DNA from: an uncultured Collinsella sp.
GTDB taxonomy: Bacteria; Actinomycetota; Coriobacteriia; Coriobacteriales; Coriobacteriaceae
Assembly: GCA_934630375.1 (NCBI GenBank)
Contig: CAKTVQ010000003.1
Location: forward strand, 1 to 64,000
Length of the DNA: 64,000 nucleotides
Reading direction: 5' to 3'
Numbering within the stretch: position 1 is the stretch's first letter; every line of letters begins with the position of its first letter. The translations under genes and the position numbers were made by a program. Below are positions 14,156 to 53,075 of this stretch, piece after piece. The notes below the pieces were generated by a model. The model was given only the letters and a program-made list of their open reading frames with translations. It searched no databases and was not told the DNA's origin.

Positions 14156-14190
14156 ACCACCACAAAGGGGACGGGCACCTTTGTGGTGGT
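14156..14190 (+). repeat. 13-nt-loop hairpin element, copy A
   Basis: An 11-bp stem (ACCACCACAAA with TTTGTGGTGGT) closes the 13-nt loop GGGGACGGGCACC; two more base pairs can form inside the loop. It starts 10 bases after the lgt stop. It belongs to the dispersed family with constant loop length and variable stem. Confidence 0.8.
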
Positions 14191-14232
14191 TTGCTGGGCA
14201 ACGATGACAGAACCGTAACGTTTCCCCAGATA

Positions 14233-14271
14233 AAACCTGCCAAAATAAACCTGTCCCTTTTTGGCAGGTTT
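14233..14271 (-). repeat. 13-nt-loop hairpin element, copy B (minus orientation)
   Basis: A perfect 13-bp stem (AAACCTGCCAAAA with TTTTGGCAGGTTT) closes the loop which on the minus strand reads AGGGACAGGTTTA. Its minus-strand tail, TTATCTGGGGAAACGTT, resembles the tail after copies C and D. It lies 21 bases before the next gene's start. Confidence 0.8.
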
Positions 14272-14291
14272 CTAGAAAGGCTCTTTGGACT

Positions 14292-16475
14292 GTGAAGGAT
14301 TCCGACCTCTCCACAACGGCTGCGCGCGATGCCGCTCGCATCGTCTGGTTTAAGCGCTACCCCGCCAAGCAGACGCTCATCGCATTTCTGCTCGCGCTGT
14401 TGGCGACCACGGCGTTTTCCATCGATCCCGCCCCGGTGTCGAGCAACGCAGTCTTGGCGATTGACCCCAAAGCCTCGGGCATGCTGTACGTGTGCTACGA
14501 GGTGCTTCTCTCGTTTGCCGGCCACACCGATGCGGTCATGCTGCTTGCGCTTGCCTGCTTGCTCACCTTGCCGTTTCGCTACGTGTTCTTTGGCCGTGGC
14601 GACACCTGGCGTCCGTCGATCATTCTGCCGTCGCTGTTCTTCGCCATCTGCATGGTGTTCGGCCGCAGCTACGACCTCACCGACTCGGCCGAGATTGTTC
14701 TTGGCGACAAGGCCCGCATCATCTGCGCCTGGATTGGCGGCGCGGGCTGGATGCTCCTAGCGATCGTGGCCTTCTATCTGGCTTTTGAGTGTCTAGATTG
14801 GCTGAGCTCTCGGCGCATCCCGTTTTCCGAGGCGCACTTTGGCCGTATATGGCGTGTGGCTCACGCCGTGCTCTCGGCCCATCCCTTTGCCGGGCCCTTC
14901 CTGGTGCTTATGATCGCCTGGGCGCCCACGCTCATCGCTTCGCTGCCCGGCCTTTTTATGGGAGATACGGGTGCGCAGATTCGCCAGTGGTTCAACTATC
15001 CCAACGGCACGAGCGACTACCTGCGCCTACTCAACCCCAACGTGCTGCTCAACGGGCATCATCCCGTAGTGCACACGGCCATTATCGGCTCGTGCGTTCA
15101 ACTGGGGCTTTCGCTGTTCAACAGCGCTAACGCGGGCCTCATCATCTATACCTGCGCTCAGTTTGTCATCACGGCTGCCTGCATGGCGTATTCCATTTCG
15201 TCGCTGCGCAAACTGGGCGTGAGCCTGCCGGTTCGCGGTGCGATCCTGCTGTTCTTTGCGTTTATGCCGATGTTCTCTAACTACGCGGCGTTGCTCACCA
15301 AAGACGTGCTCTTTGCCGACGCGTTCTTGGTTCTGCTGGTACAGACCGTCAAGCTCGTGGCATGTGGCTTGCCCCGTCGTGATGCCAATGTCGAGCGAGC
15401 GGGCGAGAAAGCCCCCGTGCTCTTTGCGCGCCACGACTGGCTGCTGCTCGCTCTGGGCGCCATGGGTTCCACGTTTTTGCGCAATGGCGGCCTGGTCTTT
15501 CCGTTGGCGGCCTGCGTGATTGCGGCGGCGTTTTGCGCATGGGATGTACATGTCGCTCGTCGTGCGGCTAAGCAGACGGGCACCGCGGTCTCATGCGCCA
15601 CGCCGCGCTTCCGCTGGGTTGGCGTCCTCGCGGTGCTCGCGCTCTGCCTTGCCTCTAATATGTACTTCACCAAGGTCTTTATGCCGGCGCACGACATCAC
15701 GCCTGGTTCCAAGCGCGAAATCCTCTCGATTCCGTTCCAACAGACGGCTCGTTTCGTCCAAAAGCACGACGGCCTCAACTCGGGCGTCAACCCTACGGTT
15801 AAGGAGGACGGCACCATCGTGGAGGCGCCCTGGGACGGTTCGGTGACCGACGAAGAGCGTGCCGTGATCGATCGCGTACTCAAGTACGAGAACCTGGGCC
15901 GCCGCTACAACCCCGACAAGTCCGATGCCGTCAAGAACTGCTTTAACGAGTACGCCTCGCAGGAGGACATCGATGCCTATTTTGAGGTATGGGCCCAGAT
16001 GTTTAAGAAGGATCCCGAGTGCTATATTTCGGCGCTTATCAATAACTACTATGGTTATTTTTATCCGAGCGCGCGTGATGCCTGGGTCTACAGCACGGCG
16101 CGTAGTGCCGAGATCATGGCGCGTCCCGACAACCTCAAGTATTTCGACTTCTATCCGGTTGACAGCAACGTGGTGCGCTGGTGTGACCACCTGATCAATC
16201 TGTACCGTGTGGCGGTGCAGCGCATCCCGTTTATTTCACTCACCATGAGCTCGGCCACCTATGTGTGGATCATGATCGCCGTGGTGGTCTACCTGCTGCG
16301 TCGTCATTCATGGCGTGCGCTGACGATCTGGGTGCCGCTGTTGGGCGTGCTCGCCGTGTGCCTGATTGGCCCGTGCAACGGCTCGACTTACATGCGCTAC
16401 CTGTATCCGGTCATCGCCTGCATGCCCTTCGCCATCGGCGCCACCGTCACCCGCAGCGACTTCCTCTGGTCCTAA
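14292..16475 (+). CDS. Large multi-pass membrane protein, DUF6020-like (possible membrane glycosyltransferase)
   Basis: A 727-residue protein with about 12-14 hydrophobic helices in its N-terminal 450 residues, a soluble loop (roughly 470-650) and three to four C-terminal helices. PGLFMGDTGAQIRQWFNYP, LNGHHPVVHTAIIG and LLTKDVLFADAFLVLLVQ are arranged as in DUF6020 proteins, which look like polyprenol-dependent GT-C glycosyltransferases; activity here is inference. The start is GTG 14292 with AGAAAGG about 11 bases upstream. The element just after the stop is hairpin copy E. Confidence 0.6.
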   Translation: MKDSDLSTTAARDAARIVWFKRYPAKQTLIAFLLALLATTAFSIDPAPVSSNAVLAIDPKASGMLYVCYEVLLSFAGHTDAVMLLALACLLTLPFRYVFFGRGDTWRPSIILPSLFFAICMVFGRSYDLTDSAEIVLGDKARIICAWIGGAGWMLLAIVAFYLAFECLDWLSSRRIPFSEAHFGRIWRVAHAVLSAHPFAGPFLVLMIAWAPTLIASLPGLFMGDTGAQIRQWFNYPNGTSDYLRLLNPNVLLNGHHPVVHTAIIGSCVQLGLSLFNSANAGLIIYTCAQFVITAACMAYSISSLRKLGVSLPVRGAILLFFAFMPMFSNYAALLTKDVLFADAFLVLLVQTVKLVACGLPRRDANVERAGEKAPVLFARHDWLLLALGAMGSTFLRNGGLVFPLAACVIAAAFCAWDVHVARRAAKQTGTAVSCATPRFRWVGVLAVLALCLASNMYFTKVFMPAHDITPGSKREILSIPFQQTARFVQKHDGLNSGVNPTVKEDGTIVEAPWDGSVTDEERAVIDRVLKYENLGRRYNPDKSDAVKNCFNEYASQEDIDAYFEVWAQMFKKDPECYISALINNYYGYFYPSARDAWVYSTARSAEIMARPDNLKYFDFYPVDSNVVRWCDHLINLYRVAVQRIPFISLTMSSATYVWIMIAVVVYLLRRHSWRALTIWVPLLGVLAVCLIGPCNGSTYMRYLYPVIACMPFAIGATVTRSDFLWS

Positions 16476-16476
16476 C

Positions 16477-16509
16477 TTGGTGCATTGGGGTCAGGTTTCT
16501 TTGCACCAA
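16477..16509 (+). repeat. 13-nt-loop hairpin element, copy E
   Basis: The stem TTGGTGCA with TGCACCAA (8 bp plus two unpaired positions) encloses the 13-nt loop GGGGTCAGGTTTC. It starts one base after the TAA stop of the large membrane protein gene. Confidence 0.7.
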
Positions 16510-16639
16510 AGGGGGCATCATCACGACGCCTTCATTTTGGGGTTTATCTCGCAGGCCAGTAGGTATATCATAACGACGTTTGTTTATATTGCCCGAGCAT
16601 CTGCGCTGGGCTTTAGGTCGAAACCGATAGGAGACACGT

Positions 16640-17446
16640 ATGTCCGGACACTCTAAGTGGGCCACAACCAAGCATCGTAAGGGCGCGCAGGACGCCAAGC
16701 GTTCCGCCCTCTTCTCCAAGCTCAGCCGCAACATCACCGTTGCTGCCCGTCTCGGCGGTGACCCGCTGCCCGAGAACAACGCCAGCCTCGCCGCTGCCGT
16801 TGCCAAGGCCAAGGCTCAGTCCATGCCTAAGGACAAGATCAAGTCCGCTATCGACAAGGCTTTTGGTTCGGGTGCTGACGCCGCCGTCTACGAGAACATC
16901 GTGTACGAGGGCTACGGTCCCGCCGGTGTCGCCGTCTACGTCGACTGCCTGACCGACAACCGCAACCGTACCGCCGCTGATGTCCGTTCCGCCTTCTCCC
17001 ACGCTGGTGGCAACCTGGGCACCTCCGGCTCCGTCGCCTTCCAGTTTGAGCGCAAGGGCCAGATCGTCGTCGCCAAGGAGATCCTGGACGAGAACGCCAA
17101 GAAGGAGACCATGATCGCCAACGGTGCTGCCGGTGACGAGGATGAGTTCATGATGGCTATCGCCGAGGCCGGTGGCGAGGACTACGAGGATGCCGGCGAG
17201 GAGTGGATCGTCTGGACTACTGCCAACGAGGTTATGGCTGTCTCCAAGGCGCTCGAGGAGCAGGGCGTCCAGGTCAAGGGTTCCGAGACCACCATGGTCC
17301 CGACCACCCCGACCGAGGTCTCTGGTACCGACGCCAAGAAGGTCCAGCGCCTCATCGACCGTCTTGAGGAGCTCGATGACGTCCAGGACGTCTACAGCAC
17401 CATGGACATGACCGACGAGGTCATCGCTGCCCTCGAGGAGGAGTAG
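16640..17446 (+). CDS. yebC: YebC/PmpR family protein
   Basis: The 268-residue protein starts with the diagnostic MSGHSKWATTKHRKGAQDAKR and contains YEGYGPAGVAVYVDCLTDNRNRT, the family core. Family members act as DNA-binding regulators or, as shown for some, as translation factors easing ribosome stalling at proline stretches. It is slightly longer than the usual 240-250 residues because of an acidic insert around 165-185 (DEDEF, EDYEDAGEEW). It has a GATAGGAGA ribosome binding site and stands alone, with a terminator downstream. Confidence 0.93.
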   Translation: MSGHSKWATTKHRKGAQDAKRSALFSKLSRNITVAARLGGDPLPENNASLAAAVAKAKAQSMPKDKIKSAIDKAFGSGADAAVYENIVYEGYGPAGVAVYVDCLTDNRNRTAADVRSAFSHAGGNLGTSGSVAFQFERKGQIVVAKEILDENAKKETMIANGAAGDEDEFMMAIAEAGGEDYEDAGEEWIVWTTANEVMAVSKALEEQGVQVKGSETTMVPTTPTEVSGTDAKKVQRLIDRLEELDDVQDVYSTMDMTDEVIAALEEE

Positions 17447-17515
17447 CGCTAACACGGATTGAGCCGTGCATATCTGGGCATAATGAAGCGAGCATGCAAG
17501 CCTCGTGGAATAGAT

Positions 17516-17559
17516 GAGCCGGATCCGCGTGCGTAGAGCACCGGACCCGGCTCTTTTAT
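17516..17559 (+). terminator. Terminator downstream of yebC
   Basis: Arms GAGCCGG and CCGGCTC, with further inner pairing (ATCCG with CGGA), are followed by TTTTAT. Confidence 0.65.
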
Positions 17560-17612
17560 AATGATGCGAACCGTTTTGCATTTCGAGAGCCGAGATTTGA
17601 AGGGAGCGCCGC

Positions 17613-18158
17613 GTGCGCGTACTCAAACGAGCCCTAGCGATCGTGTATCTTGCCGCCACCATCGTGGCGCTGGGTACGCTTGTCTGCCAGTTTTGGGGGC
17701 CGTATACGTATCGCTTTATGCTGCTGATGCGCGACCCCATGCCGCGCGTCGTCGTCACGGCGTGCGCCGGCGTCGTGGCGATCGGCGTGCTGGTAAGCTT
17801 TTTCCGCCTGATGTTCGCCCGCCGCGAGCCGTCCTGCGTGCATCCGGCGGGGGAGCGCAATATCGAGGTTACCCTTGCGGCGCTTTCTTCGTGCGCCAGG
17901 GTTGCTGCCGAGCGCGACGACCGCGTGATGGTCGAGCATGTCGAGGCCCGCGTCCAAGGCCCCGACGATTCGCACGTCCGTTTTAAGGTCGAGGCTATCG
18001 CGCTTGACGATAAGGACGTGGCATCTCTGGCTTCCTCGATGCAGCAGCGCATCGAGGAAGCCTGCGACACCATGCTCGGCACGCCAGGTACGACCGCGCG
18101 CGTCCGTTTTTTGCCGTCCAAGACTACCGTCCAGACCGTGGAGGTTTCCGGTGAGTGA
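17613..18158 (+). CDS. amaP: Alkaline-shock membrane anchor protein AmaP
   Basis: A 181-residue protein with two N-terminal membrane helices (about 8-28 and 46-66) and a cytosolic C-terminal domain. In Firmicutes AmaP anchors Asp23 at the membrane, and here an Asp23 family gene follows two genes later, which supports the call. The start is GTG 17613 after GAAGGGAG. The stop overlaps the start of the next gene by 8 bases. Confidence 0.8.
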   Translation: MRVLKRALAIVYLAATIVALGTLVCQFWGPYTYRFMLLMRDPMPRVVVTACAGVVAIGVLVSFFRLMFARREPSCVHPAGERNIEVTLAALSSCARVAAERDDRVMVEHVEARVQGPDDSHVRFKVEAIALDDKDVASLASSMQQRIEEACDTMLGTPGTTARVRFLPSKTTVQTVEVSGE

Positions 18159-18528
18159 TACCAATCAAGATAAGACCGCTCGTACGCCGCGCCTGACGAT
18201 TGACCAGAGCGCCACGCCGGCGAACGAACCTGTTGATTCCAAAGCGGAGGCAACTGAGTTGCAAGACGCGGCAACCGCGGATTTTGACGAGGCTATGGGT
18301 CTCATCAAGGGTACGGGCGCTGCCATCTGGAGCTATGCTGTGCGTCATCCCAACACCACGCTTGGCGCCGTCGCCGGCTTTATCCTCGCCGTGTTGGTGC
18401 TCACGTTGGGCCTGTGGGACACGCTCGTCATTGCATTCTTCGTGCTGATCGGCGCTGTGATCGGCCAAATTCGCGACGGCGAGAACGGGATCGTCAACTT
18501 CTTCGGCCGTCTGTTTAGTGGCCGCTAA
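18151..18528 (+). CDS. DUF2273 family small membrane protein
   Basis: A 125-residue protein with a variable acidic N-terminus (about 55 residues) and a DUF2273 domain: HPNTTLGAVAGFILAVLVLT, then GLWDTLVIAFFVLIGAVIGQ, two helices ending in the typical basic/FFGRLF tail. Its start is GTG 18151, preceded by GGAGG and overlapping amaP by 8 bases. The family is nearly always found beside amaP and asp23 and presumably forms part of the same envelope-stress assembly. Confidence 0.85.
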   Translation: MSDTNQDKTARTPRLTIDQSATPANEPVDSKAEATELQDAATADFDEAMGLIKGTGAAIWSYAVRHPNTTLGAVAGFILAVLVLTLGLWDTLVIAFFVLIGAVIGQIRDGENGIVNFFGRLFSGR

Positions 18529-18572
18529 TATGTATTCGACTGTCGCATCCGCGGCAGGCATAAGGAGGAACC

Positions 18573-19088
18573 ATGGCTTTTAATACGAAGGTCGATGTAG
18601 CCGATACCGAGCTCGAGGAGAACGAGGCGGTCGTCGCCGAAGCTGAGGATGTGACGCTCGAGGACGAGGCTCTCGTCGAGGCCGAGTCCGATACGGATGA
18701 GGACGACGAGGAAGCGGACGAGTCCGAGGACTCGCTAACCTATTCCAACGGCGTGATTGAGAAAATCGTTGCCATGGCCACCCGCGAGGTTCCGCACGTT
18801 CTGGGCATGAAGGGTAACCTCATGCACTTTGTGCAGGAGCAGTTTGGTGCCGAGAATCTGACCAAGGGCGTGACGGTCGAGGTCACCGATGATAATCGCG
18901 TGGTCGTCAACATCTCCGTCATCATCGAGTACGGCGCCTATGCGCCCGCGATCTTCGACGATGTCAAGGCACGTGTCACCGAGCGCCTTGCCGCGATGAC
19001 CGGCCTTGAGGTGGCGGGCGTCAACCTGCGCATCGAGGATGTCATCACCCCCGAGGAGTATGAGCACCGCACCAGCCAGCACGAATAA
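18573..19088 (+). CDS. Asp23/Gls24 family envelope stress response protein
   Basis: A 171-residue protein. The first 50 residues are almost entirely acidic (VVAEAEDVTLEDEALVEAES). The Asp23 domain follows (NGVIEKIVAMATREVPHV, VTVEVTDDNRVVVNISVIIEYG, VNLRIEDVITPEEYE). Asp23 proteins form a membrane-associated layer held by AmaP in relatives. It has a GGAGG site, and the three genes amaP-DUF2273-asp23 form one unit ending in hairpin copy C and a terminator. Confidence 0.9.
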   Translation: MAFNTKVDVADTELEENEAVVAEAEDVTLEDEALVEAESDTDEDDEEADESEDSLTYSNGVIEKIVAMATREVPHVLGMKGNLMHFVQEQFGAENLTKGVTVEVTDDNRVVVNISVIIEYGAYAPAIFDDVKARVTERLAAMTGLEVAGVNLRIEDVITPEEYEHRTSQHE

Positions 19089-19123
19089 CCTTCCAAAAGG
19101 GGACAGGTTTGTTTTGGCAGGTT
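19087..19123 (+). repeat. 13-nt-loop hairpin element, copy C
   Basis: Stem AACCTTCCAAAA with TTTTGGCAGGTT (one mismatch) around the 13-nt loop GGGGACAGGTTTG. The left arm begins inside the TAA stop codon of the Asp23 gene. The tail TTATCTGCGAAAACGTT is shared with copies B and D. Confidence 0.8.
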
Positions 19124-19140
19124 TTATCTGCGAAAACGTT

Positions 19141-19184
19141 AAACGGCCGACCGCGCAAGCAAAAGCGTGGCCGGCCGTTTTTGT
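19141..19184 (+). terminator. Terminator of the amaP-DUF2273-asp23 unit
   Basis: A 16-bp arm pair (AAACGGCCGACCGCGC with GCGTGGCCGGCCGTTT, two mismatches) around an 8-nt loop ends in TTTTTG. Confidence 0.8.
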
Positions 19185-19294
19185 ACGCTCCCGATGTAGT
19201 CATACCGCTCGTCTAACTAGGGGTTGCAATCGTCGCGTTCCGCGTTACTCTAATGGGCGCATTGTTTCCAAATTGTTAACGAGGGGTTGCCGTA

Positions 19295-20317: not shown

Positions 20318-20466
20318 CGCAGACGTATTCAACGAACCGCCTGCTGGCGCCGTGTACCTTGCAAATCGGTCATCTTTGAGTATTTGACCCCACATTGGGC
20401 AATAATGATGCTAAAGACATCGTTTGCGATCCAAGTGATTCGCTCAAGATACGAAGGGATGATTCT

Positions 20467-21762
20467 ATGTTCTGCTCGCAGTGTGGCGCCCCCATGGGCG
20501 ATAACGACAAGTTCTGCGGCGCGTGTGGTGCTCCTAATGCCGGTGCCGCTGGACCCGCTCCCCAGGGACAGCCTCAGCCCCAGCAGTTTGTTCCGCAACC
20601 GCCCGTGGCGAATGCGTCAAAGGGCTGTGTGGCTCAGGCGTTCCAAGATATGACCAAGACTCCGGGTGTGCTTCAGCGTGTATGCCAAATCGCGTTTTTG
20701 CCGGCGCTGATTTGCGTTGTGTCGGTGCTCGTGCTGTTTATTCCCGTTATTGGCGGCATTGCGGCTGCCATCGGCTTTTTGGCAGCTTGCATTGCGAGCG
20801 TGTGCGGTTCCGGCTTTGGTATCGAGTGGGGCCGTGATCTTTCGCTCAAGGTCGATGACGGCATGGACCGTCCACTCATGCGTTCCACGTCGTTTGGCCT
20901 CGGAGTCTTTTCGAGCGTTATTTCGGTCGTGCTCGAGGTTATCGCTGCCGTTCCCGTTATCGGTGTAGCGCTTTCGCTGGTGGAGAGCGTGGTAATTGGC
21001 GCCGCAGGTTCGTATTCGTATTACGGCTCTTATGCGCTCGAGGCTGCGCTGTTTGGCTCGCTTGGCCTGCTTGTCCTGGCTATGATTGCCACGGCGGTCT
21101 TGGGGGTCTTCTTTAAGATGTTTGCCGATATCGCCGTGATGCACTTTGCGGTGACCGGTCGCGTCGAGAGCGCGTTTTCGCTTGATAAGGTCTGGGCGGC
21201 CTTTAAGAACAATAAGACCAAGCTGTTCTGCGCTTCGTTCCTCCCCGAGTTTTTGACGGGTCTGGTCGCTAACGTTGTCACCTGGATCCTGACGTTCGTC
21301 TTTGGCACCATTGCCTCTGTCGGTATGTATAGCTACTACTACCGTCCTACGGCTATTGAGGCGCTTGTTACCGGCGGTGGCATTACGCTCGTATTGTTCT
21401 TGGTGCTGACGGCGTTTGTCACGGTATTTCTCACGGTCTTTGGCAAGATGCTCAAGCACCGTGCCGTTGGCTATTGGGTTGCACGCTATGCAAGCGAATG
21501 GGCCGATGAGGATAAGGACGACGTTCTGACTTTTGTATTGCCCTTCGAGAAGAAGTCCGCTCCTTCGGGTCACGGTGCTCCGGATGCTTCGCCGGCACCT
21601 GCACCTGTTCCCGCGCCCGAGCCTGAGCCGGCGCCCGAGCCTGAACCGGCGCCCGAGTCTGAGACGGCATCTGAGCCTGAGCCTGAGCCTGAGCCGGCAC
21701 CTGCACCTGCACCTGAGTCGGCGTCCGAGCCAAGCTCCGACGAGGAGCCTCAGGACGAGTAG
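20467..21762 (+). CDS. Zinc-ribbon membrane protein with Pro/Glu repeat tail
   Basis: A 431-residue protein. It starts with a zinc ribbon (Cys 3, 6, 17, 20 in CSQCG and CGACG) and a Pro/Gln linker. Then come six to seven hydrophobic helices resembling a DUF4013-like region (FAVTGRVESAFSLDKVWAAFK fits the soluble loop of that family). The last 60 residues are a low-complexity PAPEPEPEPAP tail ending in acidic residues. ATG 20467 follows GAAGGGA; an in-frame ATG 24 codons earlier has no site. Function unknown. The repeated Pro-Glu codons are a possible slippage region. Confidence 0.6.
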   Translation: MFCSQCGAPMGDNDKFCGACGAPNAGAAGPAPQGQPQPQQFVPQPPVANASKGCVAQAFQDMTKTPGVLQRVCQIAFLPALICVVSVLVLFIPVIGGIAAAIGFLAACIASVCGSGFGIEWGRDLSLKVDDGMDRPLMRSTSFGLGVFSSVISVVLEVIAAVPVIGVALSLVESVVIGAAGSYSYYGSYALEAALFGSLGLLVLAMIATAVLGVFFKMFADIAVMHFAVTGRVESAFSLDKVWAAFKNNKTKLFCASFLPEFLTGLVANVVTWILTFVFGTIASVGMYSYYYRPTAIEALVTGGGITLVLFLVLTAFVTVFLTVFGKMLKHRAVGYWVARYASEWADEDKDDVLTFVLPFEKKSAPSGHGAPDASPAPAPVPAPEPEPAPEPEPAPESETASEPEPEPEPAPAPAPESASEPSSDEEPQDE

Positions 21763-21771
21763 CCACGCCGT

Positions 21772-21802
21772 CTGCCATTTGGGGACGGGGTAGAAATGGT
21801 AG
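21772..21802 (+). repeat. 13-nt-loop hairpin element, copy H
   Basis: A 9-bp stem (CTGCCATTT with AAATGGTAG, one G-T pair) closes the 13-nt loop GGGGACGGGGTAG. It starts 10 bases after the zinc-ribbon gene's stop. Stem sequence is unrelated to the other copies. Confidence 0.7.
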
Positions 21803-28484: not shown

Positions 28485-28497
28485 TGCAATTGCTGTT

Positions 28498-28674
28498 TCA
28501 GGGCGGGGCGGAATTCCCCACTGGCGGTAAATCGGGCGGTGTCAAAGGGACGCCGTGGCGCAGGCGAGATACCTGCGACCGAGCCGATGAGTCCGCGACC
28601 CGTGCGTGTGTTGGTTCGCACACCGGCTGAACTGGTGAGATCCCAGTACCAACGGTTAGAGTCCGGATGAAAGA
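28498..28674 (+). ncRNA. FMN riboswitch (RFN element)
   Basis: The conserved blocks of the FMN aptamer are all present in order: TCAGGGCGGGGCGGAATTCC, ACTGGCGGTAA, GAGTCCGCGACCCG, GGTGAGATCCCAGTACC and GGTTAGAGTCCGGATGAAAGA. The 3' end lies 13 bases before the ribU start and its GGCAGGTG ribosome binding sequence, so control is probably on translation initiation. It senses flavin mononucleotide and would reduce riboflavin uptake when FMN is plentiful. Confidence 0.95.
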
Positions 28675-28687
28675 GGCAGGTGATCTT

Positions 28688-38851: not shown

Positions 38852-38927
38852 TGGTGGGCGATGAGGGATTCGAACCCCCAGCCTTGTGCGTGTAAAGCAC
38901 CTGCGCTAACCGTTGCGCCAATCGCCC
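38852..38927 (-). tRNA. tRNA-Val (anticodon TAC)
   Basis: A 76-nt cloverleaf on the minus strand. The acceptor stem GGGCGAT pairs fully with ATCGCCC, followed by A and an encoded CCA. D-arm GCGC/GCGC, anticodon loop TTTACAC (TAC, reads GTA and relatives), T-arm GGGGG-TTCGAAT-CCCTC. The first anticodon-stem pair is a G-A mismatch. Its 3' end has been copied into the adjacent tandem modules. Confidence 0.93.
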
Positions 38928-44678: not shown

Positions 44679-45404
44679 ATGGAGTACATGCAGGTCAACC
44701 GCGCCAACGGTCGCGCCGCCAACGAGTTACGCCCCGTTAAGCTCACCCGTGGCGTCATGAAGCACGCCCACGGCTCGTGCCTGGCCGAGTTTGGCGACAC
44801 GCGCGTGCTGTGCGCCGCCACTATCGAGGAGGGCGTGCCGGGCTGGCGAAAGGGAGCTAAGGCCGGCTGGGTGACCGCGGAATACGCCATGCTGCCGGCG
44901 TCGACCGGTAAGCGCTGCAAGCGCGAGCACGCTAACCGCAAGGGTCGCTCCATGGAGATCGAACGCCTCATTGGCCGCAGCCTGCGTACTGTCGTCAACA
45001 TGAAGGCGCTCGGCGAGTACACCGTTACCATCGACTGCGATGTGATCCAGGCCGATGGCGGCACGCGTACAGCGAGCATCACCGGCGCCTGGGTGGCGCT
45101 GCACGACGCCCTCGCCATGTGGGTCGAGGCAGGCAAGATCGAGCGCATCCCGCTTACCGGCCAGGTGGCTGCCATCTCCATGGGCGTTGTCGACGGCAAT
45201 ACGCTGCTTGACCTCGATTATTCCGAGGACAGCCACGCCGAGGTCGACATGAACCTCGTCGTTACCGACACCGGCGAGATGATCGAGCTCCAGGGTACCG
45301 GCGAGCAGGCGCCCTTCGACCGTAAGCGCCTCAACGCCTTGCTCGACCTGGGCGACAAAGGCATCGCCGAGCTCATCGAGCTCCAGCGCCAAGCCCTCGC
45401 CTAA
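44679..45404 (+). CDS. rph: Ribonuclease PH
   Basis: A 241-residue phosphate-dependent 3' exonuclease that trims tRNA precursors. Typical segments are [79 protein letters not shown] and [19 protein letters not shown] site precedes the ATG. The stop TAA is the first part of hairpin copy D, and rdgB follows as in many genomes. Confidence 0.96.
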
Positions 45405-45439
45405 CCTGCCAAAAAGGGACAGGTTTATTTTGGCAGGTT
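45403..45439 (+). repeat. 13-nt-loop hairpin element, copy D
   Basis: A perfect 12-bp stem (AACCTGCCAAAA with TTTTGGCAGGTT) around the 13-nt loop AGGGACAGGTTTA. The left arm starts inside the TAA stop of rph. The tail TTATCTGCGGAGACGT is shared in part with copies B and C. Confidence 0.82.
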
Positions 45440-45547
45440 TTATCTGCGGAGACGTCTAGACACAAGACTGCCGTTGATTGAGAGGGGAGAGGCGGAGGCC
45501 CTCGTCGCCCTCGGCGCGGCATTGCTATAGAGACAAGGAGACCACTC

Positions 45548-46189: not shown

Positions 46190-46192
46190 GCC

Positions 46193-46639
46193 GTGCGTGC
46201 GGTGGTGCAGCGCGTACTCAATGCCGGCGTGACAGTCGACGGCGAGTGCGTGGGCAAAATTGGGCGCGGCTATCTGGTGCTGTTGGGCGTGGGCCACGGC
46301 GACACGCGCGCCGAGGCTGATAAGCTGTGGGGCAAGCTCCGCGGTTTGCGTATTAACGAGGACGAGAACGGCAAGACCAACCTGGCACTTGCCGATGTCG
46401 ACGGCGAGGTTCTCGTGGTGTCACAGTTCACGCTGTTCGCCGACTGCCGCCACGGCCGCCGTCCGTCGTTTACCGATGCAGGCGCCCCCGATGTTGCCAA
46501 CGAGCTCTACGAGTACTTCCTGACGCTCGTTCGCCAAGATGTCGAACACGTGGCGCACGGCATCTTTGGCGCCGATATGAAAGTCGACTTGGTCAACGAC
46601 GGCCCATTCACCATCGTCCTCGATACCGACAATCTGTAA
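46193..46639 (+). CDS. dtd: D-aminoacyl-tRNA deacylase
   Basis: Frees tRNA mischarged with D-amino acids or glycine. The 148 residues show [48 protein letters not shown] (SQFTL motif) and the GPFTIVLDT end; the usual TNxGP is NDGPFT here. The start is GTG 46193, 3 bases after the rdgB stop, so translation is coupled. Confidence 0.95.
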
Positions 46640-46656
46640 GTAGCCAAATTAGCTAC

Positions 46657-46686
46657 TTGCGCGTGTTTGTAACAGGGTGCTATAGT
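46657..46686 (+). promoter_or_regulatory. Candidate promoter of veg-ispE
   Basis: TTGCGC (46657-46662) and TATAGT (46681-46686) are 18 bases apart. The -35 hexamer equals that proposed for the riboflavin operon. A small hairpin (GGGG, six bases, CCCC, then TTTTT, 46706-46725) lies in the leader. Confidence 0.45.
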
Positions 46687-46753
46687 ATTAGAGTTTTGTC
46701 TATCTTAGGGGTATTATCCCCTTTTTGAATTGCACCTTCTGGAGGCCCTGTTC

Positions 46754-47050: not shown

Positions 47051-47052
47051 CG

Positions 47053-47949
47053 GTGACCGATCGGTCCCTCACCCTTACCGCGCCGGCAAAGATTAACCTC
47101 TACCTGGGGGTTCATACCGAGCGCGATGACCGCGGCTACCACAGGGTCGATTCCCTGATGGCAGCCGTCGGTCTTTCCGATACCGTGACGGTTACGCCGG
47201 CGCAGGCGTTGACCGTCCAGACGGTTCCGGCATCAGATTTTCCCATGCAAAAGAATACGGCGTATCGGGCTGCGGTTGCTATGGCCGAGCATTATGGTCG
47301 CGAGGCAAACATCTGCGTGACGATTGAGAAGCGCATTCCTTTGTGCGCCGGCTTGGGCGGTCCCTCGACGGATGCTGCCGCGGTCATTGTCGCCTTGGCG
47401 GAGCTCTGGGGAATTGATCGCACCGATCCCGCGCTGGACAACATCGCGCGCGGTATTGGCGCCGACGTTCCCTTCTTTTTGCACGCGAGCCCTGCGTTCT
47501 ACGTAGGTGGGGGAGACGTGCTGGCAACTGAGTACCCTGCGCTGCCCGCAACGCCCGTCGTGTTGGTCAAGCCGCGCGAGGCAAGTGTTTCGACAATTGA
47601 AGCCTATCGACGTTTTGACGAGGCCCCGGTGCCTGCAGACAAGCCCGGCGCGATAGCTTCTGCCTTGCGTGCTGGTGATGCCGAGACGGCATATGCGCTC
47701 ATCCATAACAACCTGGGTGTCATTTCCGCACAGATGGAGCCGCAGATTCAAACGGTTCTCGATTGGCTGCGTAAACAGGACGGCACCGTTGCTGTAGATG
47801 TGTGCGGATCGGGCGCCTGCTCGTTTGCCATTTGCGACACGGCCGTCACGGCCGAAAGGCTTGCCGACACTGCCCTGCAAAACGGCTGGTGGTCCTGCGC
47901 GACGGAGCTCATTCCCAACACGGTTCGCATCGAAGTGCCAAAGAAGTAA
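47053..47949 (+). CDS. ispE: 4-diphosphocytidyl-2-C-methyl-D-erythritol kinase
   Basis: Fourth enzyme of the MEP isoprenoid pathway; ispD and ispF are also in this window. The 298-residue GHMP kinase has APAKINLYLGVHTERDDRGYHRVDSLM, the phosphate loop PLCAGLGGPSTDAAAVIVAL and GADVPFFLHASPAFYVGGGD. The start is GTG 47053, 2 bases after the veg stop. Confidence 0.95.
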   Translation: MTDRSLTLTAPAKINLYLGVHTERDDRGYHRVDSLMAAVGLSDTVTVTPAQALTVQTVPASDFPMQKNTAYRAAVAMAEHYGREANICVTIEKRIPLCAGLGGPSTDAAAVIVALAELWGIDRTDPALDNIARGIGADVPFFLHASPAFYVGGGDVLATEYPALPATPVVLVKPREASVSTIEAYRRFDEAPVPADKPGAIASALRAGDAETAYALIHNNLGVISAQMEPQIQTVLDWLRKQDGTVAVDVCGSGACSFAICDTAVTAERLADTALQNGWWSCATELIPNTVRIEVPKK

Positions 47950-47998
47950 AAATTTCTCTAGCACACGACGGAAATCTTTGTTACTATAGTCGAGCTAA

Positions 47999-48075
47999 CG
48001 GGTTGTGGCTCAGTTTGGTAGAGCACTGCGTTCGGGACGCAGGGGTCGCTGGTTCAAATCCAGTCAACCCGACCA
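47999..48075 (+). tRNA. tRNA-Pro (anticodon CGG)
   Basis: A 77-nt cloverleaf: acceptor CGGGTTG with CAACCCG, D-arm GCTC/GAGC, anticodon stem CTGCG/CGCAG with loop TTCGGGA (CGG), T-arm GCTGG-TTCAAAT-CCAGT (one G-T pair), discriminator A and encoded CCA. A terminator follows. Confidence 0.95.
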
Positions 48076-48085
48076 GAGCATGAGG

Positions 48086-48114
48086 AGGGACCGCTTCTTG
48101 CGGTCCCTTTTTTT
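48086..48114 (+). terminator. Terminator of tRNA-Pro
   Basis: Stem AGGGACCGC with GCGGTCCCT around a 5-nt loop, followed by six T. Confidence 0.88.
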
Positions 48115-48187
48115 AGCTACTGTTGTGATACCGCGATACCCGCGGTATACTCATTCGAGCTTGTCTCGCTGTATTGTGGAGGTCTAC

Positions 48188-48463
48188 ATGTTTGGACTGA
48201 GGGCTCCTGAGCTCATCATTATTCTCGTCGTTGTCCTGATTATCTTCGGGCCCAAGAACCTGCCGAAGCTCGGCAAGTCCCTCGGCTCTACCGTCAAGAA
48301 TATCCGTGAGGGTATGGAGGGCGACGATAAGGCCGAGACCAAGCAGGCCGAGGAGGTCGTGGTCGAGCAGTCCGAGGAGGACAAGGAGATCGCTGAGCTC
48401 GAGGCCAAGCTCGCTGCTGCCAAGAAGAAGCAGGCAGAGGATAGCGACGCGGACGCAGAGTAG
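48188..48463 (+). CDS. tatA: Twin-arginine translocase subunit TatA
   Basis: A 91-residue pore-forming subunit for export of folded proteins. It starts MFGLRAPELIIILVVVLIIFG (short membrane helix, then the FGPKNLPKLG hinge), with an amphipathic helix (LGKSLGSTVKNIREGM) and an acidic/Ala-Lys tail. ATG 48188 has GGAGG upstream; the open frame extends back through the tRNA and is not coding there. No tatC is in the window. Confidence 0.93.
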   Translation: MFGLRAPELIIILVVVLIIFGPKNLPKLGKSLGSTVKNIREGMEGDDKAETKQAEEVVVEQSEEDKEIAELEAKLAAAKKKQAEDSDADAE

Positions 48464-48488
48464 TCCCATCCCTTTGGGGTGAGCACCT

Positions 48489-48521
48489 GACCGGCTTGCC
48501 CGCAGGCTAGCCGGTCTTTTT
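48489..48521 (+). terminator. Terminator of tatA
   Basis: Stem GACCGGCT with AGCCGGTC around a 12-nt loop, followed by TTTTTC. Confidence 0.8.
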
Positions 48522-48569
48522 CGTTTTGTTGACAGTTGATTGTTTGATCAGAGTTGGAGAGATATCCGT

Positions 48570-49040
48570 ATGGACGCAAGCCAGATCGTACTGACCGCTG
48601 AGGGCCGCCAGAAGCTCGTCGAGGAGCTCGCTTGGCGTGAGGGCGATTACGCCAAGGAGATCGTCGAGGACATCAAGGAAGCCCGCGCGTTCGGCGACCT
48701 TTCGGAGAACTCCGAGTACGATGCCGCTAAGGACAAGCAGGCCCAGAACGCCGCTCGTATTGCCGAGATCCAGGCCATCCTTGCCAACGCTCAGGTTGCT
48801 GCCACCACGGGCGATCTGACCGTCTCCATCGGTTCCACCGTTTCTCTGATTGATCCCAACGGTGAGGTCATGGAAGTCACGCTCGTCGGTACCACCGAGA
48901 CCAACTCGCTCGAGCACAAGATTTCCAACGAGTCTCCGGTCGGTCACGCCATCATCGGTCACGGCGAGGGCGACTCCGTCGAGGTCGTTACGCCTTCTGG
49001 CAAGACTCGCGTCTACACCATCGCCAAGATTGCACGCTAG
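48570..49040 (+). CDS. greA: Transcription elongation factor GreA
   Basis: Rescues backtracked RNA polymerase by stimulating transcript cleavage. The 156-residue protein has the coiled-coil tip residues in FGDLSENSEYDAAKDKQ and a C-terminal domain with GSTVSLID, SNESPVGHAIIGHGEGD. ATG 48570 has GGAGA upstream; an in-frame ATG ten codons earlier is less likely. A terminator lies between it and lysS. Confidence 0.95.
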   Translation: MDASQIVLTAEGRQKLVEELAWREGDYAKEIVEDIKEARAFGDLSENSEYDAAKDKQAQNAARIAEIQAILANAQVAATTGDLTVSIGSTVSLIDPNGEVMEVTLVGTTETNSLEHKISNESPVGHAIIGHGEGDSVEVVTPSGKTRVYTIAKIAR

Positions 49041-49068
49041 ACCACGGTCCCGCGTAAAGGTATGTTTT

Positions 49069-49103
49069 CGCTCCCTGGGACCGAATCCTGGGGAGCGTTT
49101 TAG
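49069..49103 (+). terminator. Terminator between greA and lysS
   Basis: Stem CGCTCCC with GGGAGCG around a 15-nt loop, followed by TTTTAG. It ends 8 bases before the lysS ribosome binding sequence, so it could also act on lysS expression. Confidence 0.6.
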
Positions 49104-49119
49104 TTTGAGGAGCTAACTT

Positions 49120-51084
49120 ATGGCAGAGAACCAGAACGCCGCAGATCAGGCATCGACGCTCAACGACGAGCGCGCCACCCGCCTGGCCAAGCGCGCCGCC
49201 CTGTTCGAGGCGGGCCAGAACCCCTATCCCGAGCACTCTGAGCTTGAGGACTACGTTGCCGATATCGAGGCTAAGTACGCCGAGCTTGCCGATGGCGAGG
49301 ACACCGAGGACGTCGTGAAGATCGCCGGCCGTGTGGTCGCCAAGCGCGGTCAGGGCAAGATCATGTTCATCGTCGTGCGCGATGCGACTGCCGAGATTCA
49401 GCTGTTCTGCCGCATCAACGACATGGACGAGGCTGCCTGGAATACGCTCAAGGCCCTCGACCTAGGCGACATCCTGGGCGTGACCGGCGTGGTCGTGCGC
49501 ACCCAGCGCGGCCAGCTTTCCGTTGCCCCTAAGAGCGCGACCCTGCTTTCCAAGGCCGTTCGTCCGCTGCCCGAGAAGTTCCACGGTCTTTCCGACAAGG
49601 AGACCCGCTATCGCCAGCGCTATGTCGACCTGATCGCCAACGACGACGTTCGCGAGACCTTCCGTAAGCGTTCGCAGATTCTCTCCACCTTCCGTCGCTT
49701 TATGGAGTCCGACGGCTACATGGAGGTCGAGACCCCCATCCTGCAGACCATCCAGGGTGGTGCCACGGCCAAGCCGTTCATTACCCACTTCAACGCGCTC
49801 GATCAGGAGTGCTACCTGCGCATTGCTACCGAGCTGCACCTCAAGCGCTGCATCGTCGGCGGTTTTGAGCGCGTCTTCGAGATCGGCCGTATCTTCCGTA
49901 ACGAGGGCATGGACCTTACCCACAATCCCGAGTTCACCACGATGGAGGCCTACCGTGCCTTCTCCGACCTCGAGGGTATGAAGGCGCTCGCCCAGGGTGT
50001 CATTAAGGCGGCTAACAAGGCCATCGGCAACCCCGAGGTCATCGAGTACCAGGGCCAGACCATCGACCTTTCTGGTGAGTGGGCCAGCCGTCCCATGACC
50101 GACATCGTCTCCGACGTGCTCGGCAAGCAGGTCACCATCGACACGCCGGTCGAGGAGCTTGCTGCTGCCGCGCGTGAGAAGGGCCTGGAGATTAAGCCCG
50201 AGTGGACCGCCGGCAAGATTATCGCCGAGATCTACGATGAGCTGGGCGAGGACACCATCGTCAACCCGACCTTCGTGTGCGATTACCCCATCGAGGTCAG
50301 CCCGCTTGCCAAGCGCTTTGAGGACGACCCGCGCCTGACGCACCGCTTTGAGCTGGTTATTGCCGGTCACGAGTACGCCAATGCGTTCTCCGAGCTCAAC
50401 GACCCGGTCGACCAGGCCGAGCGCTTCGCTGCCCAGATGGCCGAGAAGGCCGGCGGCGACGACGAGGCCATGGAGTACGACGAGGATTACGTGCGCGCCC
50501 TCGAGTACGGTATGCCTCCCGCGGGCGGCATCGGCATTGGTATCGACCGCGTGGTCATGCTGCTCACCAACCAGGCTTCTATCCGCGATGTACTGCTGTT
50601 CCCGCACATGAAGCCCGAGAAGGGTTTCCAGTCCGGAGCCGCTGCCGCCAAGGCTGCCGAGGCCGGCAACGCCGCAAGCCCGTTCGTCAAGCCGCTCAAG
50701 CCCACGGTTGATTACTCCAAGATCGCCGTCGAGCCGCTGTTTGAGGAGTTCGTCGACTTTGATACCTTCTCCAAGAGCGATTTCCGCGCCGTGAAGGTCA
50801 AGGCATGCGAGGCCGTCAAGAAGTCCAAGAAGCTGCTGAACTTTACGCTCGACGACGGCACCGGCACCGATCGTACCATCCTCTCCGGCATTCACGGTTA
50901 TTATGAGCCCGAGGACCTGGTCGGCAAGACCTTGCTCGCCATCACCAACCTGCCTCCGCGCAAGATGATGGGCATTCCCAGCTGCGGCATGCTCATCAGC
51001 GCTATCCACGAGGAGGATGGTGAGGAGCGTCTCAACCTGATCCAGCTCGACGCCTCCATCCCCGCCGGCGCAAAGATGTACTAA
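49120..51084 (+). CDS. lysS: Lysyl-tRNA synthetase (class II) with C-terminal EMAP/Trbp111-like tRNA-binding domain
   Basis: Charges tRNA-Lys. Residues 1-510 are a normal class II LysRS: OB-fold anticodon domain (VKIAGRVVAKRGQGKIMF), motif 1 (RSQILSTFRRFMESDGYMEVETPIL), motif 2 (FEIGRIFRNEGMDLTHNPEF) and motif 3 (GGIGIGIDRVVMLL). Residues about 528-654 add a second OB fold of the Trbp111/MetRS-C type (FRAVKVKACEAVKKSKKLL, LPPRKMMGIPSCGMLI). LysRS is usually about 500 residues, so this is a fusion. The domain should raise affinity for tRNA non-specifically. A GAGGAG site is upstream. Confidence 0.93.
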   Translation: MAENQNAADQASTLNDERATRLAKRAALFEAGQNPYPEHSELEDYVADIEAKYAELADGEDTEDVVKIAGRVVAKRGQGKIMFIVVRDATAEIQLFCRINDMDEAAWNTLKALDLGDILGVTGVVVRTQRGQLSVAPKSATLLSKAVRPLPEKFHGLSDKETRYRQRYVDLIANDDVRETFRKRSQILSTFRRFMESDGYMEVETPILQTIQGGATAKPFITHFNALDQECYLRIATELHLKRCIVGGFERVFEIGRIFRNEGMDLTHNPEFTTMEAYRAFSDLEGMKALAQGVIKAANKAIGNPEVIEYQGQTIDLSGEWASRPMTDIVSDVLGKQVTIDTPVEELAAAAREKGLEIKPEWTAGKIIAEIYDELGEDTIVNPTFVCDYPIEVSPLAKRFEDDPRLTHRFELVIAGHEYANAFSELNDPVDQAERFAAQMAEKAGGDDEAMEYDEDYVRALEYGMPPAGGIGIGIDRVVMLLTNQASIRDVLLFPHMKPEKGFQSGAAAAKAAEAGNAASPFVKPLKPTVDYSKIAVEPLFEEFVDFDTFSKSDFRAVKVKACEAVKKSKKLLNFTLDDGTGTDRTILSGIHGYYEPEDLVGKTLLAITNLPPRKMMGIPSCGMLISAIHEEDGEERLNLIQLDASIPAGAKMY

Positions 51085-51132
51085 TTTGTTACGCGGTTCT
51101 ACGAACCGCGCAACGGCTCGACGCTTCCGCGT

Positions 51133-51223
51133 GCCGCATTTGGACAATCTGACGTTCAACTTCAAGGGCGCGACCAGAAGGTCAGCGCCCTTTCGTTTCA
51201 CGTCACCTTGTCTCAAATGCGGC
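51133..51223 (+). terminator. Nested hairpin terminator after lysS
   Basis: An inner hairpin AAGGGCGC with GCGCCCTT followed by TCGTTT looks like an intrinsic terminator (51162-51192). Around it, GCCGCATTTG and CAAATGCGGC, and part of the bases between, pair to give a second tier. A small CGCGGTTC/GAACCGCG hairpin precedes it (51091-51109). The gene-free stretch 51085-51473 also holds hairpin copy I; bases 51367-51473 show nothing else but the next gene's ribosome binding site. Confidence 0.6.
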
Positions 51224-51337
51224 CCGCTCGCTGACTTATGCTCAACCTATGGTGTCATCTCGCCCCAAAAGGACCTTGCTCGCTCTGGCGGGCTTTCGCT
51301 GTCGTTGCCAAAACATCGGCGTTGCCTTGGCCGTCAA

Positions 51338-51366
51338 TAGTCATTGGGGACGGTCTTAAACGACTA
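51338..51366 (+). repeat. 13-nt-loop hairpin element, copy I
   Basis: Stem TAGTCATT with AACGACTA (one mismatch) around the 13-nt loop GGGGACGGTCTTA. Unlike the other copies it is far (254 bases) from the upstream stop codon. Confidence 0.55.
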
Positions 51367-51473
51367 CCCAACGGCTATTGTGCACATGGTTCGCATGACA
51401 GCCGTCTCTTTTATGTTTCCTTTAGCCGTCGCTGCCTAGGATGGGGGTTAGTCGGCAGGAAGGGAGCGTCTAT

Positions 51474-53042
51474 ATGGACGACGCGAGCGATCGTGCAATC
51501 GAAGAGGACATGCTCGATCAGTTCAACTATTTTGATGATGAGGACGAGGAATTGATCGATCGTCGCGAGCCGGCGGCGCTCGATGCTTTCGACCTTGTTG
51601 ATGAAGGGCCCGACGAGGACGAGGTCGAATCGACGGAACCCCCACAGCCTTCGCACCATGATTCGTTGCTCTCAAGAGTCCCCATGCACCACGGTGTCCG
51701 TGCCGGCGCACTCCATATGAAAACTGACTGGCACCAGATCGTGACGGCAGGCGATGAGCTTGCCGTCGATGCGCCGCTCACCGATAAGTCATCCATCATC
51801 TGCCGCACCGGTATGCTTATGCTCGCGAGCGGAACGGGTGCCTGGCGTGTACGCGATACCATGAATCGCGTCGCCGCCGTACTCGGTGTCACCGTCCACG
51901 TTGACTTAAGTCTTCTGTCGTTTGAGTGCACCTGCATCGAAGATGGCCACTGCTTTAACGAGGTTGTCAGCCTGCCCACAACGGGAGTCAATACCCATCG
52001 CATTTGGATGATGGAGAGCTTCCTAAAGGAAATCGAGACGTATGGGCGCCGGTTTACCGTGCACGAATACCACGAGATGCTCAAGACCGTTGAGAGTTCA
52101 AAACCCGATTACTCTCCCTGGCAACAGGGCCTTGCGGCAGCTTGTGCTTGCGGCGCCTTCGTCTTTTTGCTCGGCGGCGGCCCTATCGAGATGGCCTGCG
52201 CATTCGTAGGCGCTGGTGTTGGCAACTTTGCTCGCTCTCATATTCTCAAGCAGGGTCTTGGCCAGTTTAGCGCGCTGACGATTGGCGTTGCGCTCGCTTG
52301 CGTTTCGTATCTGCTGGCATTGCTCGGCCTTGGCCAGGTCGTACCGGGGGCAATGTCGCACCAAGAAGGCTATATCGGCGCCATGCTCTTTGTGATTCCC
52401 GGCTTTCCCCTCATTACGGCAGGCCTCGACATCGCTAAGCTCGATATGCGAAGCGGCATTGAGCGTCTTTCGTATGCCGTGTCGATTATTGTGATGGCGA
52501 CCCTTGTGGGCTGGATGGTTGCCGAGTGTGTGGGGCTGGCGCCGGATGACTTTGCCCCGCTCGGGCTCTCACCGTTGGCTCTTACACTCTTGCGTGTGGT
52601 GATGAGCTTCGTCGGTGTATTTGGCTTCTCGGTTATGTTCAACAGCCCGGTAAAGATGGCCGCGGCGGCCGGTCTGATCGGCGCCGTGTCCAATACCTTG
52701 CGTCTGACCCTTGTCGATGCGCCGGCGCTGTTTCCCTTCCTGGGCCTGAGCTTAGGTATGCCTCCCGAGGCAGCAGCGTTTATCGGTGCGCTGGTATCGG
52801 GGCTGCTTGCGAGCTTAGCCGAAATCAAGCTCACCTACCCACGTATCGCCCTCACGGTGCCATCGATTGTCATTATGGTGCCGGGCTTGTATCTGTATCG
52901 CTCGATGTATTACATGTGCACCTTCGACACGGTCAATATGCTCGGCTGGTTTGTGCGTGCAGTGCTCATCGTGGCGTTTCTACCCGTTGGCCTGGGCGTG
53001 GCGCGTACGCTCACCGACCCTCGCTGGCGCCACACCAGCTAA
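51474..53042 (+). CDS. Threonine/serine exporter family protein (ThrE, DUF1212)
   Basis: A 522-residue protein. About 75 acidic N-terminal residues precede a soluble DUF1212 region (MLMLASGTGAWRVRDTMNRVAAVLGV, LPTTGVNTHRIW). About ten helices follow in the two-part ThrE layout, ending in VPSIVIMVPGLYLYRSMYYM. Relatives export threonine and serine. In many genomes the two halves are separate genes; here they are one chain. ATG 51474 has GGAAGGGAG upstream. Hairpin copy F starts at the base after the stop codon. Confidence 0.88.
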   Translation: MDDASDRAIEEDMLDQFNYFDDEDEELIDRREPAALDAFDLVDEGPDEDEVESTEPPQPSHHDSLLSRVPMHHGVRAGALHMKTDWHQIVTAGDELAVDAPLTDKSSIICRTGMLMLASGTGAWRVRDTMNRVAAVLGVTVHVDLSLLSFECTCIEDGHCFNEVVSLPTTGVNTHRIWMMESFLKEIETYGRRFTVHEYHEMLKTVESSKPDYSPWQQGLAAACACGAFVFLLGGGPIEMACAFVGAGVGNFARSHILKQGLGQFSALTIGVALACVSYLLALLGLGQVVPGAMSHQEGYIGAMLFVIPGFPLITAGLDIAKLDMRSGIERLSYAVSIIVMATLVGWMVAECVGLAPDDFAPLGLSPLALTLLRVVMSFVGVFGFSVMFNSPVKMAAAAGLIGAVSNTLRLTLVDAPALFPFLGLSLGMPPEAAAFIGALVSGLLASLAEIKLTYPRIALTVPSIVIMVPGLYLYRSMYYMCTFDTVNMLGWFVRAVLIVAFLPVGLGVARTLTDPRWRHTS

Positions 53043-53075
53043 TTGGTGCAAGGGGGACAGGTTACTTTGCACCAA
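53043..53075 (+). repeat. 13-nt-loop hairpin element, copy F
   Basis: A 10-bp stem (TTGGTGCAAG with TTTGCACCAA, closing G-T pair) around the 13-nt loop GGGGACAGGTTAC. It begins at the base after the TAA stop of the exporter gene. Its stem is close to that of copy E. Confidence 0.82.

Follow-up and report, generated by a model that had tools for sequence, protein, structure and literature searches.

The 64,000 nucleotides (nt) analyzed here (hereafter the window) are positions 1 to 64,000 of contig CAKTVQ010000003.1 from an uncultured Collinsella species. The window belongs to the C. aerofaciens group and contains eight hairpins (A to F, H and I), members of several families of short, repeated DNA hairpins that combine a fixed loop signature with family-specific stems. 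All 104 NGGG[AT]C[AG] motifs on both strands of the window were scanned for hairpins, defined as at least five of seven Watson-Crick pairs at distances 7-13 from the axis. Exactly eight motifs sit in such on-axis hairpins and there is no ninth, with 1.9 expected from random axes. A sequence-only reading of the window had listed the same eight copies, and their positions are confirmed. Comparisons were made with 20 loci matching the protein of the open reading frame (ORF) 14292-16475, all from Collinsella and 94-99% identical over the best segment. The nearest genome compared (G001) contributed 800 kb, which together with the window gives 864 kb of scanned DNA.

Hairpin A (14156..14190, plus strand, type T2) has the stem ACCACCACAAA and the 13-nt loop GGGGACGGGCACC and lies about 10 nt past the stop of ORF 13265-14146. 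This distance is explained by a duplicated ACCACCACA, and in relatives such as L061 the arm begins within that stop. Hairpin B (14233..14271, minus strand, type T1; stem AAACCTGCCAAAA, loop AGGGACAGGTTTA) is inverted relative to A and 42 nt apart from it. The other T1 copies are C (19087..19123, plus strand, one mismatch) and D (45403..45439, plus strand), whose first two bases are overlapped by the TAA stops of ORFs 18573-19088 and 44679-45404, respectively. A 3' tail of the T1 unit (TTTTATCTGSG...), common to most T1 copies, is found beside B (14221..14241, minus strand) and C (19116..19136, plus strand). Type T3 is represented by E (16477..16509, plus strand; stem TTGGTGCA, loop GGGGTCAGGTTTC within two mismatches), located 1 nt past the stop of ORF 14292-16475, and by F (53043..53075, plus strand), which begins at the base following the stop of ORF 51441-53042. 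Hairpin H (21772..21802, plus strand, type T4; stem CTGCCATTT, loop GGGGACGGGGTAG) has one G.T wobble, and the gene preceding it ends in a repetitive tail rich in Pro, Glu and Ala (about 21560-21762). Hairpin I (51338..51366, plus strand, type T5) combines the stem TAGTCATT with the loop GGGGACGGTCTTA. The earlier description of the stop codon positions holds, with C and D overlapping a stop, E and F within 1 nt and A and H within 10 nt, all in sense orientation.

A constant feature of the hairpins is the position of the motif relative to the axis. Across the 864 kb, 355 NGGGAC[AG][GT] motifs and 352 reversed controls were each evaluated at 17 possible axes. Forty-six hairpins were centered on the seventh base of NGGGACR (offset 6), compared with none or one at each of the other 16 offsets and at most one per offset in the reversed control. 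A second register scan of two other Collinsella genomes (400 kb each) produced 10 hairpins at offset 6 in G018 and 12 in G045, with at most one at any other offset. With 129 matches versus 42 for its reversed pattern, the bare motif is in excess in G001. The 13-nt "loop" of some families is itself partly paired, leaving a CAG triloop (GGGGA-cag-TCCCC), so the fixed feature is where the motif lies relative to the dyad axis rather than an unpaired 13-nt loop. Hairpin E additionally has two T.T mismatches between the stem and the 13-nt loop. Of the fixed 13-nt loop proposed by the sequence-only reading, the register is thus retained, but not an invariably open loop.

Stems vary in sequence within limits. 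Among 70 pooled on-axis hairpins, chosen for at least six of seven pairs, we found 27 different 7-nt arms, with an A/T pair at position 7 in 62 and at position 8 in 67 hairpins, the stem positions bordering the 13-nt loop. All four Watson-Crick pairs occur at positions 11-12, hence the stem sequence changes while pairing persists. Orthologs at site A covary accordingly (AAGACC/GGTCTT versus AAAACC/GGTTTT). The stems nevertheless fall into types, which means that their variation is not free. G001 and the window contain T1 (ACCTGCCAAAA with the 3' tail), T2 (ACCACCACAAA), T3 (TTGGTGCA), T4 (CTGCCATTT), T5 (TAGTCATT), T6 (CACTCATT), T7 (ATGTGACAAAGG) and a few others, and at least seven types coexist within one genome. 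Stem types and alignments rest partly on orthologous, non-independent copies. The five stems previously listed as freely varying and covarying do keep their pairing but represent types: B and D share one, C has the same with one mismatch, and E and F share another. The stem of I, described as self-complementary, is imperfect due to an A.C mismatch.

The catalog used for gene positions holds 47 hairpins from G001 and the window (50 entries minus 3 without GGGAC or GGGGTCAG), with genes called by a simple dicodon script and no standard annotator. Forty-three are located between called genes and four overlap one, while 6 of the 22 hairpins in G018 and G045 overlap a called gene. Hairpins A and B, their ortholog in G001 and two further cases in G001 form inverted pairs; two other neighboring G001 pairs are direct. 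Inspection by eye of the sequences upstream of all 47 hairpins found no GT[AG]G or CGTC foot tag on T1-T7. In the GTAGCTAA family, GTAG is located within the stem. In different genomes, the T1 loop AGGGACAGGTTTA is swapped for AGGGATGTTTA-like loops at site C (L062, L069, L077) and site D (L141, L149), for which recurrent change or gene conversion are candidate explanations.

Hairpins of the same design flank genes of REP-associated tyrosine transposases (RAYTs; REP, repetitive extragenic palindrome). For each RAYT gene, the best inverted repeat between the two flanks was sought without reference to the motif, and the axis was measured afterwards. We tried 61 Coriobacteriales loci, of which 51 had a recognizable gene and 10 had none; 30 loci less than 90% alike were left. 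Flanking inverted repeats (TIRs) were found at 23 of the 30 loci. All 23 contain an on-axis hairpin with at least four of seven pairs (22 with at least five), a somewhat generous count since one repeat can hold several motifs. Among the remaining seven loci, six had no repeat at E 0.001 and one had a short flank. A coarser run, in which near copies were removed only roughly and the axis was left free around each GG motif, covered 24 Coriobacteriales loci, and 20 of them had the axis at offset 6 together with a stem score of at least 6. The other four comprise L041 and L089, on axis with weak stems, as well as L059 (script offset 11, from another motif match) and L037 (a TTGGTCA variant), both on axis by eye.

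The type of stem follows the RAYT lineage, the loop hardly does, and abundance follows RAYT presence. Arms are identical in all RAYT pairs at least 70% alike, which amounts to 19 pairs after removing copies more than 99% alike and only 4 after removing those more than 90% alike. Between RAYTs less than 50% identical, arms are 0.37-0.41 alike, compared with 0.75-0.77 for the first nine loop bases. A hairpin identical to H (T4) flanks the RAYT gene of G011 (L054), the kind of gene that the sequence-only reading had proposed to look for. T6 flanks the G001 RAYT at 759737-760492 (L087), and four T6 copies are located elsewhere in the 800 kb read. Copies dispersed through a genome with the cognate RAYT were thus seen for T6 in G001 but not for T1, T2, T3 or T7. 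RAYT presence per genome was assessed at E 1e-15 and set against the ratio of motif to control matches. This ratio is 1.02-5.25 in 34 genomes with an open RAYT, 0.67, 0.88, 0.89, 0.93, 0.96 and 2.31 in six genomes without a RAYT, and 0.92, 1.0 and 2.25 in three genomes with only an interrupted RAYT. A rank test of the 34 versus the 9 genomes gives p about 8e-5, uncorrected for relatedness.

The enzymes are encoded by one or few diverged copies per genome. Of 39 relatives, 26 have PF01797 proteins, a few of which are ordinary IS200 transposases. An alignment of 14 RAYTs shows Y1 HUH proteins with invariant N59, H60 and H62 as well as Y119, N123 and P124 (N-H-x-H and Y-x3-NP), followed by a conserved C-terminal block. 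All six RAYTs scanned exceed the PF01797 cut-off, and their best NCBIfam match is the REP-associated transposase model, in each case under its cut-off. Weak to moderate helix-turn-helix (HTH) matches with E <0.05 were found in four of the six (L046, L044, L054, L059), and only the L046 match lies above a Pfam cut-off. No HTH match was found in L034 and L037, and no Bac_DnaA_C match in any of the six. The only solved relative found by sequence search is TnpAREP (4ER8). These predicted features agree with those of subclass 2.1, RAYT group 1 or TIRYT, as described in the consulted sections of PMC6006769.

We consider it likely, at a probability of roughly 0.8, that the hairpins are REP-like elements, i.e., short non-autonomous units recognized as folded single-stranded DNA by RAYTs of subclass 2.1 (group 1, TIRYT). 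The flanking transposase-like enzymes are probably what recognizes this DNA. The unpaired GGGAC half of the loop could serve as a class-wide contact or guide, by analogy with the foot GTAG for the E. coli RAYT, and the stem would confer enzyme specificity. Copies might then spread via single-strand cutting and joining.

Several observations weigh against this reading. G006 has an excess of motifs (2.31) without a RAYT, G045 (2.25) has an interrupted RAYT only, and one genome with an open RAYT shows no excess (1.02). None of the RAYTs examined is flanked by T1, T2, T3 or T7, which are the most frequent types near the window. Flanking inverted repeats are lacking in a RAYT lineage that is common in C. 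aerofaciens (L046, L048) as well as in L088, L091, L093, L220, L233 and L234. Among 15 loci with a TIR from beyond Coriobacteriales, an on-axis hairpin with a real stem was seen in only four, namely L103 (another order of the phylum), L113 (IMG/VR), L119 (Acetoanaerobium) and L120 (Rhodospirillum), with L123 weakly on axis. Most other loci outside the order have GGGGTCAG or GGGGAC repeats without such a hairpin. Finally, no clean recent insertion was found, and sites missing B, F and others usually retain part of an arm.

The common C. aerofaciens-group lineage comprises L046, L048 and L049, none of which has a TIR, and the similar L051-L053 and L056. A RAYT of the L046 lineage might serve T1, T2, T3 and T7. 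The interrupted RAYT of G045 (L234) has an on-axis hairpin, TCAAAAA-GGGGACAGGCACT, within 700 bases despite having no TIR, and this hairpin resembles dispersed CTCAAAAAGG copies of the same genome.

Stop codons are strikingly frequent next to the hairpins of G001 and the window. Twenty-two of the 47 hairpins lie within 12 nt of the stop of a called gene, compared with a null mean of 2.9 and a maximum of 9, and none of 2000 random placements reached 22. The enrichment proposed by the sequence-only reading is thus borne out in this DNA, but the link is missing in G018 and G045, where 1 of 22 hairpins is near a stop. Roughly every second copy in G001 and the window has a consistent position and orientation at a gene end. 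A slightly wider rule yields 24 near-stop hairpins, 21 of them in sense orientation, and the stop is TAA at 20 of these 24 sites compared with 314 of 728 called genes overall. By type, the near-stop copies are T1 (9), T7 (5), T2 (4), T3 (3), T4 (1), T5 (1) and one other. At most T1 and T7 copies, the stop codon runs into the first bases of the element (TA+A). A model of truncation by insertions that bring new stops was rejected: protein ends compared with orthologs have a median shift of 0 in 13 near-stop genes (11 distinct, two being in both G001 and the window), with no clear difference to 117 other genes (p 0.22). The genes preceding D and C look a few residues shorter than their orthologs.

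The orientation, the preference for TAA and the clustering at stops would all be expected if the hairpins were cis-acting RNA elements at mRNA 3' ends, acting through ribosome stalling, 3'-end protection or protein binding, with copies kept at stops and any mobile origin secondary. Retention of A, C, D and E across C. aerofaciens-group genomes also fits such a role. E. coli REPs are known near stops as well, which provides a precedent for the position, and those within 15 nt of a stop lower translation according to the consulted part of PMC12306157. We regard this explanation as rather unlikely. It leaves the inverted repeats around RAYT genes and the copies on either strand unexplained, T5 and T6 are mostly located away from stops, and the hairpins match no Rfam family. 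The sequence-only reading had left the choice open between a 3' untranslated region RNA element and a unit moved by a RAYT-like Y1 transposase. The latter is favored by the TIR hairpins with their shared loop register and enzyme-specific stems, the presence of both orientations, the doublets and the RAYT presence. Because two other Collinsella genomes show no stop link, the family can be explained without the RNA option; copies that abut stops may still act at the RNA level. Stop codon placement belongs to a lineage rather than to the whole hairpin class, and targeting, selection for harmless sites and mRNA use are candidate reasons for the placement of T1, T2, T3 and T7.

Intrinsic transcription terminators sharing a loop by coincidence would likewise place many hairpins at gene ends, and short T-runs do follow T1 and T2. 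Yet by eye T3, T5, T6 and T7 have no T-run past the stem, and a separate GC-rich inverted repeat with TTTTT lies next to C (about 19139-19185). A fixed loop register and an association with RAYTs are not features of terminators either, making this account very improbable. Base composition needs consideration because GGGGACRGG could arise by chance in a G+C-rich genome, and the bare motif is indeed no commoner in the window than in shuffles (30 matches at up to one mismatch versus 35.6 expected). The excess in the window resides in the hairpin register, and the register scan, with 46 hairpins at offset 6 versus none or one at any other offset and in the reversed control, refutes chance as an explanation. 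The idea that the 3' arm arose from the target by snap-back was also rejected, as the same stems recur at unrelated sites.

Most hairpins of the window are shared with relatives. A has a copy in 20 of 20 relative loci, sometimes damaged, and B is present in 13 of 20, with the other seven seemingly retaining a partial arm. E and C are kept in 19 of 19 alignable relatives. Considering relatives aligned on both sides, H is kept in 9 of 10, D in 17 of 17 (two with an altered loop) and F in 10 of 11. In L134, L146 and L147, F has been lost except for one arm, and I is variable. These alignments suggest that hairpins were lost through deletions between short repeats. At one site, the hairpin is absent from G044 (L333), which has the same stop and flanks 82% identical; where copies are absent elsewhere, partial arms or altered flanks are found. 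As no clean fresh insertion was found, we infer mobility from copy number, doublets and enzyme association.

Further remnants occur in the window. An imperfect hairpin of the GTAGCTAA family with a TTTGGGACGGGGCTCTT loop (12789..12829, minus strand) falls under the scan threshold and is absent from the sequence-only reading. A recognizable copy exists in 19 of 19 relatives compared, altered in L076. A loop-less remnant of the same family (46638..46658) is intact in relatives such as L140. At 11228..11252 (plus strand), the window has a collapsed remnant of a hairpin array, where relatives (L062, L064, L069, L072, L076) bear inverted doublets of two different types. An Rfam scan of the window at gathering scores identified an FMN riboswitch (28490-28682), tRNA genes at 38855-38927 and 47999-48072 and nothing else, which rules out a known RNA family for the hairpins.

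The uvrA locus of G001 illustrates how hairpins and genes may be combined. At L157 6171-6811 (G001:C1 about 66171-66811; also L275), ORF 6226-6780 encodes a GNAT acetyltransferase (PF13302). Two T7 hairpins in direct orientation, both adjoining a stop, enclose the ORF, and a UvrA-like gene comes next. None of the other 42 genomes of the genus has a DNA match to the ORF at E 1e-30, and it is missing from the 20 relatives at the locus. The arrangement resembles a gene-plus-3'-hairpin unit with a right junction that is not clean. A T7 empty site in the 20 relatives was considered and downgraded, since their sequence past the TAG resembles the T7 5' half and the right flank differs. In G012 (L295), a T4-like hairpin fragment lies next to a T7 half at the same stop of the first T7 site (T7-1), which suggests that sites are reused by different types.

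The sequence-only reading knew of no name for this family, a statement that needs little correction. TIRs carrying GGGGWSAS were described next to TIRYT genes by Di Nocera et al. 2013 (PMC3733652), which amounts to this association but lacks the hairpin rule. In the sections consulted, the RAYT-like genes are of the kind seen here and are surrounded by inverted repeats, and some genomes have dispersed copies. Some of these TIRs are partly or wholly self-complementary, but no fixed axis, loop length or division into stem and loop is described there, and neither Collinsella nor Actinobacteria are mentioned. GGGGWSAS is fitted by GGGGACAG and GGGGTCAG but not by GGGGACGG. Among the TIR motifs found here GGGGACA fits, whereas GGGGACG and GGGGCC variants fail a strict fit. 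A literature text search on the loop sequences retrieved no paper about such repeats by title among the matches listed.

In the parts of Quentin et al. 2018 (PMC6006769) consulted, TnpAY1 subclass 2.1 (RAYT group 1) shares the Y1 core and the Y-x3-NP motif with the enzymes here, and its C-terminal extension with HTH similarity has a possible counterpart in their conserved C-terminal block. Automatic and manual searches reported there found no REP-like sequences near subclass 2.1 genes, in contrast to the 23 of 30 Coriobacteriales loci whose flanking repeats contain hairpins here. The hairpin rule reconciles the GGGGWSAS TIRs with the lack of REPs at subclass 2.1 for Coriobacteriales, where the TIRs form hairpins that carry their tag in the loop. 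GTAG-tagged REPs of RAYT groups 2 and 3 are likewise short hairpins with inverted doublets and enzyme-specific families, according to the consulted portions of PMC8266576 and PMC3733652, and E. coli copies lie near stops (PMC12306157, in part). They carry GTAG at the 5' foot, and their loops span 2-3 nt in many families and 2-20 nt overall (PMC8266576 and PMC3733652, in the same portions). T1-T7 have no foot tag, and their conserved sequence is the 5' half of the 13-nt loop. In our reading, the hairpins constitute a REP class tagged in the loop rather than at the foot, outside the GTAG/CGTC foot tag that defines tagged REPs. The ends of insertion sequences (IS) of the IS200/IS605 family are strand-specific hairpins recognized by a Y1 transposase. 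The RAYT genes here differ in being one or few diverged copies per genome and not a multicopy IS.

Tentatively, the largest RAYT group might use a code other than GTAG, in which the 5' half of the loop carries a tag common to the whole class and the stem acts as the address for one enzyme lineage. Some enzymes in C. aerofaciens could then place hairpins at stops, giving gene-plus-3'-hairpin units able to carry genes, as at the G001 uvrA locus. According to the consulted sections of PMC6006769, subclass 2.1 is found in 14.9% of strains and is the second largest subclass of its family, and its DNA substrate was previously known there only as a loose TIR motif. The rule of an axis on the seventh base of NGGGACR, a 13-nt loop and an enzyme-specific stem makes this substrate predictable and the recognition of loop versus stem testable in one in vitro assay. 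The rule also provides a search for such repeats where GTAG-based searches found nothing.

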